This document shows positions 8,969 to 13,816 of a stretch of DNA of 54,492 bases, one piece after another. Made by a program: the position numbers and the translations under genes. Location of the stretch: the NCBI GenBank assembly GCA_021442595.1, contig JABUST010000182.1, forward strand, positions 1 to 54,492, given 5' to 3'. Numbering within the stretch: the first letter of the stretch is position 1; the number at the start of each line of letters is the position of its first letter. The notes beneath the pieces are model-generated. The model had not been told where the DNA came from, did not search any database, and saw nothing but the letters and a program-made list of their open reading frames with translations. The stretch comes from Lachnospiraceae bacterium (GTDB lineage Bacteria; Bacillota; Clostridia; Lachnospirales; Bianqueaceae).

Positions 8969-9760
8969 CTATTGCAGCGCCCAGTACAGCTGCAGGATCC
9001 CGTATAGGACCAGGATATGAGCCGGATAGAAGCCGTAGCAGAACCTGCGGAACCAGGGAGCATCATACCCTTTCCGGCCCTTGTAAAGCCAGATGGGGAT
9101 TAGGGCAAACACCGCTAGGGTCTGGCGGGCGAAATAGATGTCCAGCCCGAAAACAGTCACCTGATAGGTGTAGCCGGAAATGCCCTCTTCGCAGATGAGA
9201 TACAGCAAAACCAGCTGACCCAGAAAAACAAAAATGTTTTTGGTTCCCCCCTCCGGGTCTCTCCGAAGGAAATAAAACACGAATACCATCAGCACCCCGA
9301 AGCCGTAGTAATCCACCATGGTCACCATGCCCAGGATCCAGCCCAGAGCGATGGCCAGCAGGGACACCAGGGCCGTGAGCCAGATGCGGTTCAGACTCCG
9401 GGCCTTCTCTATGCCCATCATGAGAAGCAGAGCCAGCACAAAGGTCCATAGCACATTCTGGTCCATGGGATAGAAGACCGTTCCTCCCATCATGAGATTG
9501 AAGGGGATCTCGGATATGATGGCGCAGGTCACCAGCCGCAGCAGATATTTCCAGCGGTTTCGGGTATAGTAGAAGCCCTCGGCAATCATAAAGGCAAAGA
9601 TGGGAAATGCCAGCCGGCCGATGCAGGTCAGCCATTCCCACTGAGGGAAGAGAGTGGCCCAGCTGTGGTCACAGAGCATAAAGACCATGGCCAGCACATG
9701 GAGTCCAAAGGAACTGAGGCCTCCGACCTTCTCCTTAACAGGTGCAGTCGGCCTCATCAT
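8969..9760 (-). CDS. TraX family membrane protein
   Basis: 263 residues with eight or more hydrophobic segments. TraX hallmarks are visible: the N-terminal LHVLAMVFMLCDH, GRLAFPIFAFMIAEGF, and a C-terminal FYPAHILVLY. F-plasmid TraX acetylates pilin N-termini; chromosomal copies in Clostridia are usually acyltransferase-like membrane proteins of unknown substrate. The start overlaps the cyuA stop in an ATGATGA arrangement, so both are made from one mRNA. I see no conjugation genes nearby. Confidence 0.85.
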   Translation of the reverse strand: MMRPTAPVKEKVGGLSSFGLHVLAMVFMLCDHSWATLFPQWEWLTCIGRLAFPIFAFMIAEGFYYTRNRWKYLLRLVTCAIISEIPFNLMMGGTVFYPMDQNVLWTFVLALLLMMGIEKARSLNRIWLTALVSLLAIALGWILGMVTMVDYYGFGVLMVFVFYFLRRDPEGGTKNIFVFLGQLVLLYLICEEGISGYTYQVTVFGLDIYFARQTLAVFALIPIWLYKGRKGYDAPWFRRFCYGFYPAHILVLYGILQLYWALQ

Positions 9761-11040
9761 GCTTCCTCGCTGTGGACCATCAAATGGATGATCTCATCAT
9801 CCGTGGCCCGCATGCCGTCTCTGGCCACCATGCTGACGGCCTTGATGGTGTTCTCCACACCCTTGACAATGATGCCGTCGCCGCCATAGAACTGGCTGTC
9901 ATGAGCATACATCTGCCATCCCAGCAGACCGGCCTCCACCGCAGAGGCGATTTTGGCGGCGCAGCTGGCTTTGGCTCCGTCACAAATCATGCCGGAATTG
10001 ATGGCAAGGGCGTTCACGATGGTATGGGAAATTTCCTTTACACCGCCTCCGTAAAGGAAGCAGATGCCGGCTCCGGCTCCCACCCCGGCGCTGGTGGCGC
10101 CGCAGTAAGCGGAAAGGCTGCCGATACCGGTCTTTAAGTGGATGGTCACCAGATTGGACACCACAAGAGCCCTAAGCAGCAGATCCTCGGAGACATTGCA
10201 TTCCTTGGCATAAATAATAACGGGAATGGAAGCGGTCATGCCCTGGTTTCCGCTGCCGGAATTGATGACCACCGGCAGCTCGCAGCCGTTCATACGGGCA
10301 TCGGAGCCTGCAGCAGCCCAGGCCTTGGCCCGGTTCTGCACGCTGTTTCCGTAGGAGCGCAGCAGGATCTTGCCCACGCTGGCACCGTACTTTTCCTCCA
10401 GTCCCACAGAGGCAATGTGCATGTTGTAGTCGATCTGTCTCTGCAGGGTCTCCCGCACATCCACCAAATCAACTTCCTGCGCGAACTCCACAATCCCTTC
10501 TACGCTCAGCAGCTTCCGGTTCTCCGGAGGCTGCACAGCCTCATCGGAGAAGGCGATGCTCCGCAGCACCTCCCCGTTCTTCTCAATGCGCACCACGTTG
10601 GTGTGGTGGGCCACGATGCGCACAAAGGCAGACTCATCCCCCCTGCCGAACACTCTGACCTGCAGATCGAAGGGACACTTGGCAGTGGATTCCGCAATGG
10701 TAATGTTCTTTCTTTCCAGATATTCCTTAAGATCAATAAGCTGGGCATCCGTCACCTTGGCGATGACCTCCAGCTCCGCATCCGCATCACCGCAAGTGAT
10801 GCCGGCTGCCACAGCTGTTGCCAGCCCCTTGCGTCCTCCGGTGTTAGGCACGATGACACTCTTCACATTCTTGATAATGTTGCCGCTGACTGTCAGCTCC
10901 ACCCTTTCAGGCAGAGAACCCAGCACCTTCCTGGCAAGGGCTCCGGCGTAAGCCACGGCAATAGGCTCTGTGCATCCCATGGCGGGAACCAGTTCCTCTT
11001 TCAGAATGTCAACATAAGCATCATAAATCTGTCTGTCCAT
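9757..11040 (-). CDS. cyuA: L-cysteine desulfidase / UPF0597 family (CyuA, YhaM-like)
   Basis: 427 residues matching the serine dehydratase alpha-chain-like UPF0597 family along its length. Visible features are VPAMGCTEPIA with Cys23, VSGNIIKNVKSV, the glycine-rich CGATSAGVGAG and MICDGAKASC. Characterised members break L-cysteine into pyruvate, ammonia and sulfide using a labile iron-sulfur cluster, and the conserved cysteines fit this. GAGAGGT precedes the ATG. It leads an operon with traX from a good promoter at 11132-11160, divergent from the NifX/SlyD fusion gene. Confidence 0.85.
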   Translation of the reverse strand: MDRQIYDAYVDILKEELVPAMGCTEPIAVAYAGALARKVLGSLPERVELTVSGNIIKNVKSVIVPNTGGRKGLATAVAAGITCGDADAELEVIAKVTDAQLIDLKEYLERKNITIAESTAKCPFDLQVRVFGRGDESAFVRIVAHHTNVVRIEKNGEVLRSIAFSDEAVQPPENRKLLSVEGIVEFAQEVDLVDVRETLQRQIDYNMHIASVGLEEKYGASVGKILLRSYGNSVQNRAKAWAAAGSDARMNGCELPVVINSGSGNQGMTASIPVIIYAKECNVSEDLLLRALVVSNLVTIHLKTGIGSLSAYCGATSAGVGAGAGICFLYGGGVKEISHTIVNALAINSGMICDGAKASCAAKIASAVEAGLLGWQMYAHDSQFYGGDGIIVKGVENTIKAVSMVARDGMRATDDEIIHLMVHSEEA

Positions 11041-11184: not shown

Positions 11185-11213
11185 TTCCTAACCTGGAGAA
11201 AAGGTGGTATAAT
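11185..11213 (+). promoter_or_regulatory. extended -10 promoter of the NifX/SlyD fusion gene
   Basis: TGG-TATAAT at 11205-11213 is an extended -10 with a perfect hexamer; the -35 equivalent TTCCTA (11185-11190) is poor. It faces away from the cyuA promoter only 25-30 bp distant, so one regulator could act on both. Confidence 0.65.
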
Positions 11214-11227
11214 AGCATGATTAAAAT

Positions 11228-11271
11228 AAAGGAGCGTATCCCGCCTTCCCCGGGCGGGTCACAACAAGCAT
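11228..11271 (+). promoter_or_regulatory. leader with a GC-rich hairpin between Shine-Dalgarno and ATG
   Basis: AAAGGAG lies at 11228-11234 but the ATG is at 11272, 37 nt away. The gap holds a 6-bp stem CCCGCC/GGCGGG (11240-11245 with 11253-11258). Folding shortens the effective spacing to about 18 nt. No closer binding site and no in-frame upstream start is visible. Confidence 0.55.
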
Positions 11272-12150
11272 ATGAAAATCGCAGTTACTTATGAAAACGG
11301 TTCCGTCTTTCAGCATTTCGGAAAGACCCGGGAATTCAAGCTGTATGAAGTAGAAAACAATGCCATTGTATCCACTGAGATCACCGGAAACAACGGCGCA
11401 GGCCACGAGGCCCTGGCAGAGCTGCTGGCAGATCTGGGCGTGGAGGTCCTTATCTGCGGCGGACTGGGACAGGGTGCCCGGGATGCTCTGACAGATGCAG
11501 GCATTCAGGTCTTTTCCGGCGCCGCAGGCGATGCAGACGAAGCTGTTGCCTGCTATCTCAGCGGTGCACTGGAGTCCTCCGGCGTAAACTGTGACCATCA
11601 CGATCACGAAGAGGAAGCCGATGATGACGAAATCCCCGAGGAAGAGGGCTGCGGCGGATGCGGCAGCTGCGGCGGCGGATGCGGCGGATGCTCCGGCTGC
11701 GGGGAGCCCGAGATCATCCTGGAGGGCAAAAATGCCGGCAAGCTGGTAAGTGTCCATTACCGGGGCACCCTGAACGACGGCACCCAGTTCGACTCTTCCT
11801 ATGACCGGGGAGAGACCCTGGACTTCCTCTGCGGCGCAGGCATGATGATCGCAGGCTTTGACAAGGCCGTTGTGGACATGGAGGTGGGTCAGGAGGTAGA
11901 CATCCATCTGTCTCCCGAGGAGGCCTACGGCCCTGTTAATCCCGCTGCCATCTTCACAGTTCCCCTGGCTGCTTTGGCCGGGGCCGAGAAGCTGGAGGTA
12001 GGCGCTCAGATTCACCTTTCCACCGGCGGCCGTCCCTTCCCCTGCAAGGTCACGGATAAAACCGAGGAGTCCATCACCTTTGACGCCAACCACGAGCTGG
12101 CCGGTCAGGAGCTGAACTTCCACATCCTTCTGGTGGAGGTACAGGAGTAA
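11272..12150 (+). CDS. fusion of NifX-type (FeMo-co family) domain and SlyD-type FKBP prolyl isomerase
   Basis: 292 residues in three parts. Residues 1-100 match the dinitrogenase iron-molybdenum cofactor (NifX/NifB C-terminal) fold: MKIAVTYENG, QHFGKTREF, GAGHEALAELL, then ICGGLGQGARDAL. Residues 105-145 are a linker with a His/Asp/Glu cluster (DHHDHEEEADDD) and six cysteines at 127, 130, 133, 137, 140 and 143. Residues 150-292 are a SlyD-like FKBP: VHYRGTLNDGTQFD, the EAYG motif, the insert-in-flap region and NHELAGQEL. Known SlyD proteins fold proteins and bind nickel with a C-terminal His/Cys tail; here the metal-rich part joins two domains. A metallochaperone or metallocluster foldase is inferred. 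A strong terminator follows. Confidence 0.85.
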   Translation: MKIAVTYENGSVFQHFGKTREFKLYEVENNAIVSTEITGNNGAGHEALAELLADLGVEVLICGGLGQGARDALTDAGIQVFSGAAGDADEAVACYLSGALESSGVNCDHHDHEEEADDDEIPEEEGCGGCGSCGGGCGGCSGCGEPEIILEGKNAGKLVSVHYRGTLNDGTQFDSSYDRGETLDFLCGAGMMIAGFDKAVVDMEVGQEVDIHLSPEEAYGPVNPAAIFTVPLAALAGAEKLEVGAQIHLSTGGRPFPCKVTDKTEESITFDANHELAGQELNFHILLVEVQE

Positions 12151-12245: not shown

Positions 12246-12282
12246 AAAATCCCCGAAGCCTTTTCAAGGCTTCGGGGATTTT
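12246..12282. terminator. bidirectional intrinsic terminator
   Basis: Perfect 17-bp stem (12246-12262 with 12266-12282) with a TTC loop and T-runs on both strands. It separates the fusion gene from the convergent wall-hydrolase gene. Confidence 0.92.
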
Positions 12283-12358: not shown

Positions 12359-13816
12359 TCATCTCGGCCAGCGCAGAGGATCGCCGTCGGCAGCCCCTCT
12401 GTACAGGTCGGAATCGTCGGAGTACACCAGTCTGAATTGATAGTAGGGTACATACTGTGGAGGATTAAACCAGGTTCCGGTTTCTGTGTCGATATTTTCC
12501 GCATATCCACCCAGGGTCTCAATGCAAAACCCGAAGTCCTGACCCAGCATGGGAGACCACTTCATATACGCGGCGCTGGCACAATCGGCTCCGGCAGGGA
12601 AAAAGTTCTCACCGTAAATAGCCCGGATGGCCTCCTGACCCACATACATCCAGATGTGGCCCACATTGCCTACCACCACGAAGATATCCCCGGGCTTCAG
12701 ATTGTCCCGGCTGATTTCAGAACCAACGGCAATCAACTCCCATTGGTCGGAATTTTTCATATAGTTGTACTGGGTGATTACATTCCCCATGGGGAAATCA
12801 TCGTCTGTGCCGGACCAACGGACAGCAGTACCTACGCCTCTATCGCAGGATTGATAGATAACGCCGAAGTCTCCGATATTATCTCTGACAGTGCGGTACA
12901 GCTCGGTTCCGTTATTGTTCAGACCCATTCCCTCCACAGGGTAAGAGATGGACACCATGGCCAGCTCCAAGGTGGAATTATCATATGTGAATTCCCGGAT
13001 GACCCGGTGGTGATCCAGACGCTTAATGAGAAGCTCCATTTCCGAAGCCTCCCCGCTGTCATACTCCCAGGCAGAAAACCGCACCATCCAGGAACGGGCT
13101 GCCTGCACATAGGAATCAAGCTCAGCATCCGGTTCCAGCCCCATCCATTGGGTGCAGAACAGAGTCACCGCCTCCTCCAGGGTCAGGTTCTTTCCGGACC
13201 ATTCCCCCAGAACTTTGCCAAAGACCGTGCTTCCCGTGGGCGCCGGGCTTCCCAGCAGAAAAACAGCATTAAACTCCGGAAGATACCACTGCCCATCCAC
13301 CATGTAATCGGCGGCTTCCAGAAATTCCTGAGCCCGGAGTCCCCGCCACCGGCCGATGCCCAAACCGGGATACAGCCCGTCAGTGCCTTTGTACGGCTCC
13401 TCGGGATGCAACTCGTTCATGGCCCTCAGCAGGCCAATGATGACGTTCTCCGTATAGGCGTTCAGATCCTCCAGAGCAGCAGTTTTTCTCTCCCCTTCCG
13501 GATTCATGGTCTCACCCGTAATCATTTCAACAGCAGAAGGATCCAGGCCGGTCCATTCTGTAAGACCTCCCAGTACCGCGGCAATGGCCTCCGGGCTCAT
13601 CCCGCGGCTCTTGCCTGTATTCCAGATGATGCGGGCCATCTTTTCTGCGCATTCCCTGTCGTCGCTGTCCTTAGCATATTCTGATGCGATCTTTGAATCT
13701 GCACTGACCGGCATACTCCCCGGAACAGCCATGGTCAGGACCAGACAGAATATCAGGAAACAGCGCCCTGCTTTGTGAAACAGCCAATGATGCGGCAAAT
13801 CCATATTTTTCCCCAT
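12359..13816 (-). CDS. secreted two-domain protein, likely cell-wall hydrolase (lysozyme-like plus NlpC/P60- or CHAP-like)
   Basis: 485 residues. Basic N-terminus, hydrophobic core (FLIFCLVLTMAV) and a PVSADS site suggest a signal peptide cut near residue 40. Residues 50-250 resemble the tail-lysozyme/transglycosylase fold (MARIIWNTGKSRGMSPEAIAAVLGGL, later GIGRWRG). Residues 310-430 look like a papain-like amidase, with a Cys (QSCDRGVGTAV), LKPGDIFV and a His (GHIWMYVG). This pairing resembles CwlT-type hydrolases. Neither domain is a textbook match, so the exact cleavage is unknown. GGGGA lies 5 nt before a second in-frame ATG at 13804, which may be the true start. No operon partner. Confidence 0.62.
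   Translation of the reverse strand: MGKNMDLPHHWLFHKAGRCFLIFCLVLTMAVPGSMPVSADSKIASEYAKDSDDRECAEKMARIIWNTGKSRGMSPEAIAAVLGGLTEWTGLDPSAVEMITGETMNPEGERKTAALEDLNAYTENVIIGLLRAMNELHPEEPYKGTDGLYPGLGIGRWRGLRAQEFLEAADYMVDGQWYLPEFNAVFLLGSPAPTGSTVFGKVLGEWSGKNLTLEEAVTLFCTQWMGLEPDAELDSYVQAARSWMVRFSAWEYDSGEASEMELLIKRLDHHRVIREFTYDNSTLELAMVSISYPVEGMGLNNNGTELYRTVRDNIGDFGVIYQSCDRGVGTAVRWSGTDDDFPMGNVITQYNYMKNSDQWELIAVGSEISRDNLKPGDIFVVVGNVGHIWMYVGQEAIRAIYGENFFPAGADCASAAYMKWSPMLGQDFGFCIETLGGYAENIDTETGTWFNPPQYVPYYQFRLVYSDDSDLYRGAADGDPLRWPR

Follow-up and report, generated by a model that had tools for sequence, protein, structure and literature searches.

A single gene on the forward strand (11,272–12,150) of the window, the whole stretch of 54,492 nucleotides that we analysed, encodes a NifX-like domain fused to a SlyD-type prolyl isomerase. 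The gene starts with ATG and specifies 292 amino acids followed by a stop codon. The fusion occurs in many Lachnospiraceae of the gut and rumen and in relatives of theirs. We give about an even chance to the view that the protein is a cytoplasmic metallochaperone, built as three modules on a flexible string, which would couple the loading of a cofactor to the folding of a client. Little is known of how strict anaerobes insert metal cofactors into proteins, and prolyl isomerases (PPIases) have only recently been linked to iron-sulphur biogenesis (PMC10653786). With a cofactor-carrier type of domain naturally joined to SlyD in one chain, the fusion, widespread in gut Lachnospiraceae, is a compact and testable system for the coupling of loading and folding. 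The parts and the general idea are already known, while the combination, the N-terminal position of the metal module and its exchange between Mrp, DUF134 and SlyD are new. Our literature search, in a library with few subscription papers, found no paper on a PF02579–SlyD fusion; the architecture is probably listed in domain databases.

Architecture and distribution of the fusion

The N-terminal PF02579 (Di-Nase/NifX-like) domain comprises residues 1–104 (11,272–11,583, forward strand), as supported by Pfam, the best NCBIfam match, Foldseek and conservation. It is followed by a disordered tether rich in metal ligands (residues 105–151; 11,584–11,724) and by a SlyD-type FKBP prolyl isomerase (residues 152–292; 11,725–12,147), all on the same strand. 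Pfam matched PF02579 to residues 10–96 (E = 4.9e-21, 75.3 bits against a cut-off of 26.3) and PF00254 (FKBP) to residues 154–224 (E = 5.6e-20, 72 bits against a cut-off of 21), both scores being about three times the curated cut-offs. The NCBIfam SlyD model NF008008 (PRK10737) covered residues 158–292, and the FKBP12-IF(SlyD) chimera 5i7p aligned without a break across residues 155–290. The insert-in-flap chaperone domain, with approximate boundaries at residues 222–272 (11,935–12,087, forward strand) taken from 5i7p, is thus complete, and the original prediction of a complete SlyD FKBP was right. Among known structures, Foldseek matched the two parts of the protein to SlyD/SlpA structures and to TM1816 (1o13) and PH0822 (2yx6). 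The SlyD half, which matched PDB entries 5i7p, 4odm and 3cgm, is 25–36% identical to solved SlyD/SlpA-type structures. An AlphaFold model with 60 orthologues as input had a mean pLDDT of 88.8 and two well-defined domains, with tether residues 110–143 disordered (pLDDT below 50). As the pTM was only 0.54, the arrangement of the domains relative to each other is undefined.

With the SlyDs of E. coli, H. pylori and Thermus thermophilus the fusion shares the FKBP core with its insert-in-flap domain, the PPIase residues and a disordered segment rich in metal ligands. In contrast to them, its metal segment lies N-terminal of SlyD and belongs to the Di-Nase half, it carries an extra folded domain of cofactor-binding type, and it ends at the FKBP domain without a C-terminal His/Cys tail. 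Such a nickel-binding tail is present in E. coli SlyD, though not in all SlyDs.

To assess how widespread the fusion is, we scanned genome contigs and confirmed at least 557 relatives. The best 80 of these aligned over nearly the full length with 54–64% identity and included isolates of Coprococcus comes, Blautia hansenii, Lachnospira multipara and Butyrivibrio. Sequence identity between orthologues from many genera is about 60%, and both Pfam families were matched in 60/60 aligned orthologues. The fusion is present in most relatives within the window's own GTDB family, in 24 of 120 genera (about 20%, counted from the listing, with two checked) of a second family within the order, and in one genome of another class (G608). 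The family with these 120 genera (at least 120 in all) is the one that we take to be Lachnospiraceae. Its own genome has no second PF02579 gene, and the SlyD half matched just one further protein there, which with 429 aa has the size of a trigger factor. The suspicion that an assembly, frameshift or annotation artefact merged two genes could draw on the fragmented assembly of the window (223 contigs) and on an internally deleted version in one related assembly, but it is refuted by the uninterrupted reading frame and by hundreds of relatives, the best 80 nearly full length and isolates among them, and its probability is close to nil. No frameshift that would split the protein into two genes was seen in related genomes, so the claim of one 292-residue fusion protein holds with two confident domains. 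In the deleted version (L146, genome G002) residues 43–150 are missing in frame and a short NifX start joins SlyD directly, which reflects either a deletion or an assembly error.

Putative ligands, tether and isomerase site

The best NCBIfam match of the N-terminal domain was the C-terminal domain of MrpORP (E = 1.9e-22, 80 bits against a cut-off of 450). This match is limited to the Di-Nase part and the P-loop ATPase domain is missing, so the protein is not an MrpORP. The nifX model gave E = 0.025 (15 bits against a cut-off of 112), which places the domain outside NifX/NafY proper. Of the predicted membership in the FeMo-co family, the PF02579 assignment of the N-terminal residues stands, with the MrpORP C-domain and not NifX as the closest relative. 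The nitrogenase family PF00148 was found nowhere in the whole genome; a nitrogenase role was rejected on this ground, as had been foreseen.

Several known proteins share features of this domain. TM1816 and PH0822 have the same fold (TM-score by target 0.81–0.85), but they stand alone, without SlyD. NafY, NifX and the NifB C-domain share the PF02579 fold and the HFG histidine, in NafY the key ligand that binds FeMo-co (PMC8496260); the fusion differs from them in its weak nifX score and in a genome without nitrogenase. In MrpORP (Orp9, Desulfovibrio), too, a Di-Nase domain makes up half of a protein with two domains, and HFG and C-D-H motifs are present. The fusion, however, has SlyD as its partner in place of a P-loop ATPase, a different fusion order, and no cysteines flanking HFG. 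On isolation, the MrpORP Di-Nase domain carried a [3Fe-4S] cluster, for which the authors suspect the HFG and CDH motifs as ligands (PMC6345978).

Conservation was calculated from 91 orthologue sequences, one of which duplicates that of the window. F13, H15, F16, G17, G42, H45, C62-G-G, C107 and H110 were 99–100% conserved, and the histidine of the HFG motif (H15-F16-G17) was present in 100% of the orthologues. H15, H45, C62, C107 and H110 are also largely retained in relatives that lack SlyD. On the basis of sequence conservation, H15, H45 and C62 are putative ligands of the N-terminal domain. The HFG motif is embedded in FQHFGKTR here versus CxHFGHCE in MrpORP. Because the flanking cysteines are absent, with the HFG histidine and the C-D-H motif kept, the type of cluster is not transferable by homology.

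The tether varies between 27 and 72 amino acids among the 91 orthologues, with 3–10 Cys, 3–17 His, many acidic residues and no fixed spacing. Only its metal-ligand composition and the NCDHH start are conserved, while the rest of the order varies freely; tandem HEEGHSCG-like (GHSCG-like) units occur in 28/91 orthologues. It had been described as a metal-rich linker with a six-cysteine motif. The CxxCxxCx3CxxCxxC stretch is indeed found at C127–C143 (11,650–11,700, forward strand), but as the order of the tether changes so freely it is a local form, and we rejected it as a cluster motif since its spacing is not conserved in the 91 orthologues. Almost all of 27 N-domain relatives without SlyD end in a similar His/Cys tail, and 26/27 keep the equivalent of C107. 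Five free SlyDs of the same clade (L133, L134, L135, L151 and L152) lack a metal-rich stretch, and no fusion was seen in their genomes; they may be ancestral or may have lost the NifX half. Together, the tail of the SlyD-less relatives and its absence from the free SlyDs indicate that the putative metal-binding tail came with the N-terminal domain and not with SlyD.

To examine the isomerase site, the active-site positions of FKBP12 were mapped onto the fusion through the 5i7p alignment. Y163, F173, D174, R179, M192, I193, F196, Y219 and F283 are at least 93% conserved, and the prolyl isomerase site of the SlyD half therefore looks intact. Inside the FKBP active-site segment FVCGxGMMI, C187 (codon 11,830–11,832) is 95% conserved in the fusions. 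The corresponding position is Leu (L50) in FKBP12 and His in E. coli SlyD, and C187 may place the isomerase under the control of metal or redox state. An internal start that would yield free SlyD was rejected, as candidates were present in only 6/87 orthologues, at differing places.

Module exchange and candidate functions

The N-terminal domain occurs in four arrangements. In some loci it stands alone, there adjoining genes for an Mrp/NBP35 ATPase and a DUF134 protein. At four loci of the same family of the order (L139, L140, L141 and L142) it is fused behind Mrp in an MrpORP-like protein with a Cys/His tail; L140 scored 402 bits with the MrpORP model, whose cut-off is 450. In other relatives it is fused behind a DUF134 DNA-binding domain, a name based on sequence recognition and on a match to NCBIfam PRK04217, and the position in front of SlyD, as in the window, is the fourth arrangement. 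In a tree of the N-terminal domain the SlyD label required 4 changes versus 25.7 in shuffles, so the label is clustered, with 104 columns too few to settle a single origin. The Mrp profile matched every genome searched in the co-occurrence check, including all controls, so that Mrp co-occurrence carried no information.

The in-frame DUF134–NifX fusions (L113, L115–L117, L120, L122, L125–L128, L148, L149, L153 and L154) have a Shine-Dalgarno sequence and an ATG exactly at the NifX start in 13/14 cases, compared with 7/53 for in-frame ATGs elsewhere inside the genes (Fisher p = 4e-8). This suggests that one such gene may yield two products, a long form that binds DNA and a short, free NifX-like form.

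For the SlyD fusion, a chaperone that inserts its cargo into a folding client, as first suggested, stays the best hypothesis, with added support from module swapping and the literature. Such a metallochaperone would work as follows. The Di-Nase domain and its His/Cys tail would hold a metal ion or an iron-sulphur-type cluster, and the SlyD half would use its insert-in-flap domain to bind metalloprotein clients that are still unfolded, and would isomerise their prolyl bonds. The tether would keep the cargo beside the folding client, so that loading and folding could be coupled. IscU, IscS, SufS and MisSU are interaction partners of SlyD in E. coli and H. pylori, where SlyD also affects Fe-S enzymes, and H. 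pylori without SlyD has lower aconitase activity and lower amounts of MisSU (PMC10653786). Taken with the likeness of the other half to MrpORP and NafY, a carrier tethered to a foldase is the most economical model. That the same module is joined to Mrp and DUF134 in other relatives, or encoded next to them, also speaks for this view. On the other side, the missing HFG-flanking cysteines mean that the [3Fe-4S] site of MrpORP should not be assumed here, and the cluster of the MrpORP Di-Nase domain was itself passed only poorly to aconitase (PMC6345978). In addition, the fusion is missing from many genera, and the coupling is not obligatory, given that a few genomes have free SlyDs of the clade that lack the metal half. 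A more far-reaching version of the metallochaperone, in which one protein would insert cofactors into many metalloenzymes of strict gut anaerobes while they fold, with a carrier module interchangeable among Mrp, DUF134 and SlyD, is tentative, and we lean against it somewhat.

The variable tether could also be a plain metal buffer. The whole protein would then serve in storage, with the Di-Nase domain and the Cys/His tail sequestering excess metal or iron sulphide and SlyD as a passenger or general folding helper. A sponge-like tether would fit the finding that only its composition is kept, with up to 17 His and 10 Cys and the GHSCG-like repeats. IssA of Pyrococcus furiosus gives a precedent: it is cited in PMC6345978 as a PF02579-family protein with a functional tail, cationic and thioferrate-binding, through which it stores thioferrate. 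The tether of the fusion is, however, acidic and rich in Cys and His. The fixed H15, H45 and C62 in the folded domain suggest a defined site, the PPIase site appears fully retained, and the same module is found on Mrp, a cluster-transfer ATPase. We regard storage as unlikely, at roughly one chance in four.

A nickel-specific metallochaperone, in which the N-terminal Cys/His module would have replaced the C-terminal nickel tail and would serve nickel enzymes, is improbable. The nickel-binding tail of E. coli SlyD resembles the tether in composition, but the tail of the fusion accompanies the Di-Nase half and not SlyD. A nickel role of SlyD is described in PMC11198818 and PMC7840056. Among the 120 genera, LarC, on which alone our nickel survey is based, was somewhat commoner in carriers of the fusion (19/24) than in non-carriers (60/96). 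The difference was not significant (p = 0.15) and 5/24 carriers lacked LarC, so dedication to LarC-dependent nickel was rejected. Similarly, moaA was found in 12/24 carriers and 38/96 non-carriers (p = 0.37, not significant); with half of the carriers lacking moaA above the cut-off, dedication to the molybdenum cofactor was rejected as well. These Fisher tests ignore phylogeny and serve as a screen only.

Equally improbable is a folding switch, in which the cargo of the Di-Nase domain would toggle SlyD activity and the protein would sense metal or redox state instead of delivering a cofactor. Nickel inhibits the PPIase activity of E. coli SlyD, and the fusion of the same module to the DUF134 DNA-binding domain looks sensor-like. 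Against a switch, the long disordered tether and the low pTM of the predicted model point to no fixed interface between the domains.

Gene neighbourhood and range of proposed clients

Clustering of flanking ORFs in about 90 orthologous loci revealed no consistent functional neighbour, and the window's own neighbours, cyuA included, were at none of these loci. Many flanks were short, with more than 2 kb available upstream in 63/91 loci and downstream in 70/91. An operon-based function was rejected for want of a recurring partner in these loci. The divergent neighbour (9,757–11,040) had been named a cysteine desulfidase; it matches SDH_alpha, consistent with a CyuA-type enzyme, but with 0 of about 90 loci sharing this adjacency the link of the fusion to cyuA falls. 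The lack of a consistent neighbour, together with the lack of a significant moaA or LarC association, suggests many clients. Carriage tracks neither molybdenum-cofactor nor LarC nickel genes, a single-client job is unlikely, and the clients of the proposed metallochaperone would probably be several housekeeping metalloproteins.

The fusion gene has its own intrinsic terminator with a 17 bp stem (12,246–12,282, forward strand) and stands as a single transcription unit. Upstream, a candidate -10 box TATAAT preceded by TGG (11,208–11,213, forward strand) was picked by eye and was not listed by the promoter scan. A Shine-Dalgarno-like AAAGGAG (11,228–11,234, forward strand) is placed some 37 nt upstream of the ATG, and a GC hairpin (11,240–11,258) separates the two. 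In 75/88 relatives, by contrast, the Shine-Dalgarno site is at most 20 nt from the start. The distant AAAGGAG and the hairpin possibly reflect translational control or an insertion. The convergent neighbour (12,359–13,816, reverse strand) has a signal-peptide-like start and a sub-threshold match to Phage_lysozyme2 (E = 4.4e-6), and is probably a secreted cell-wall enzyme.
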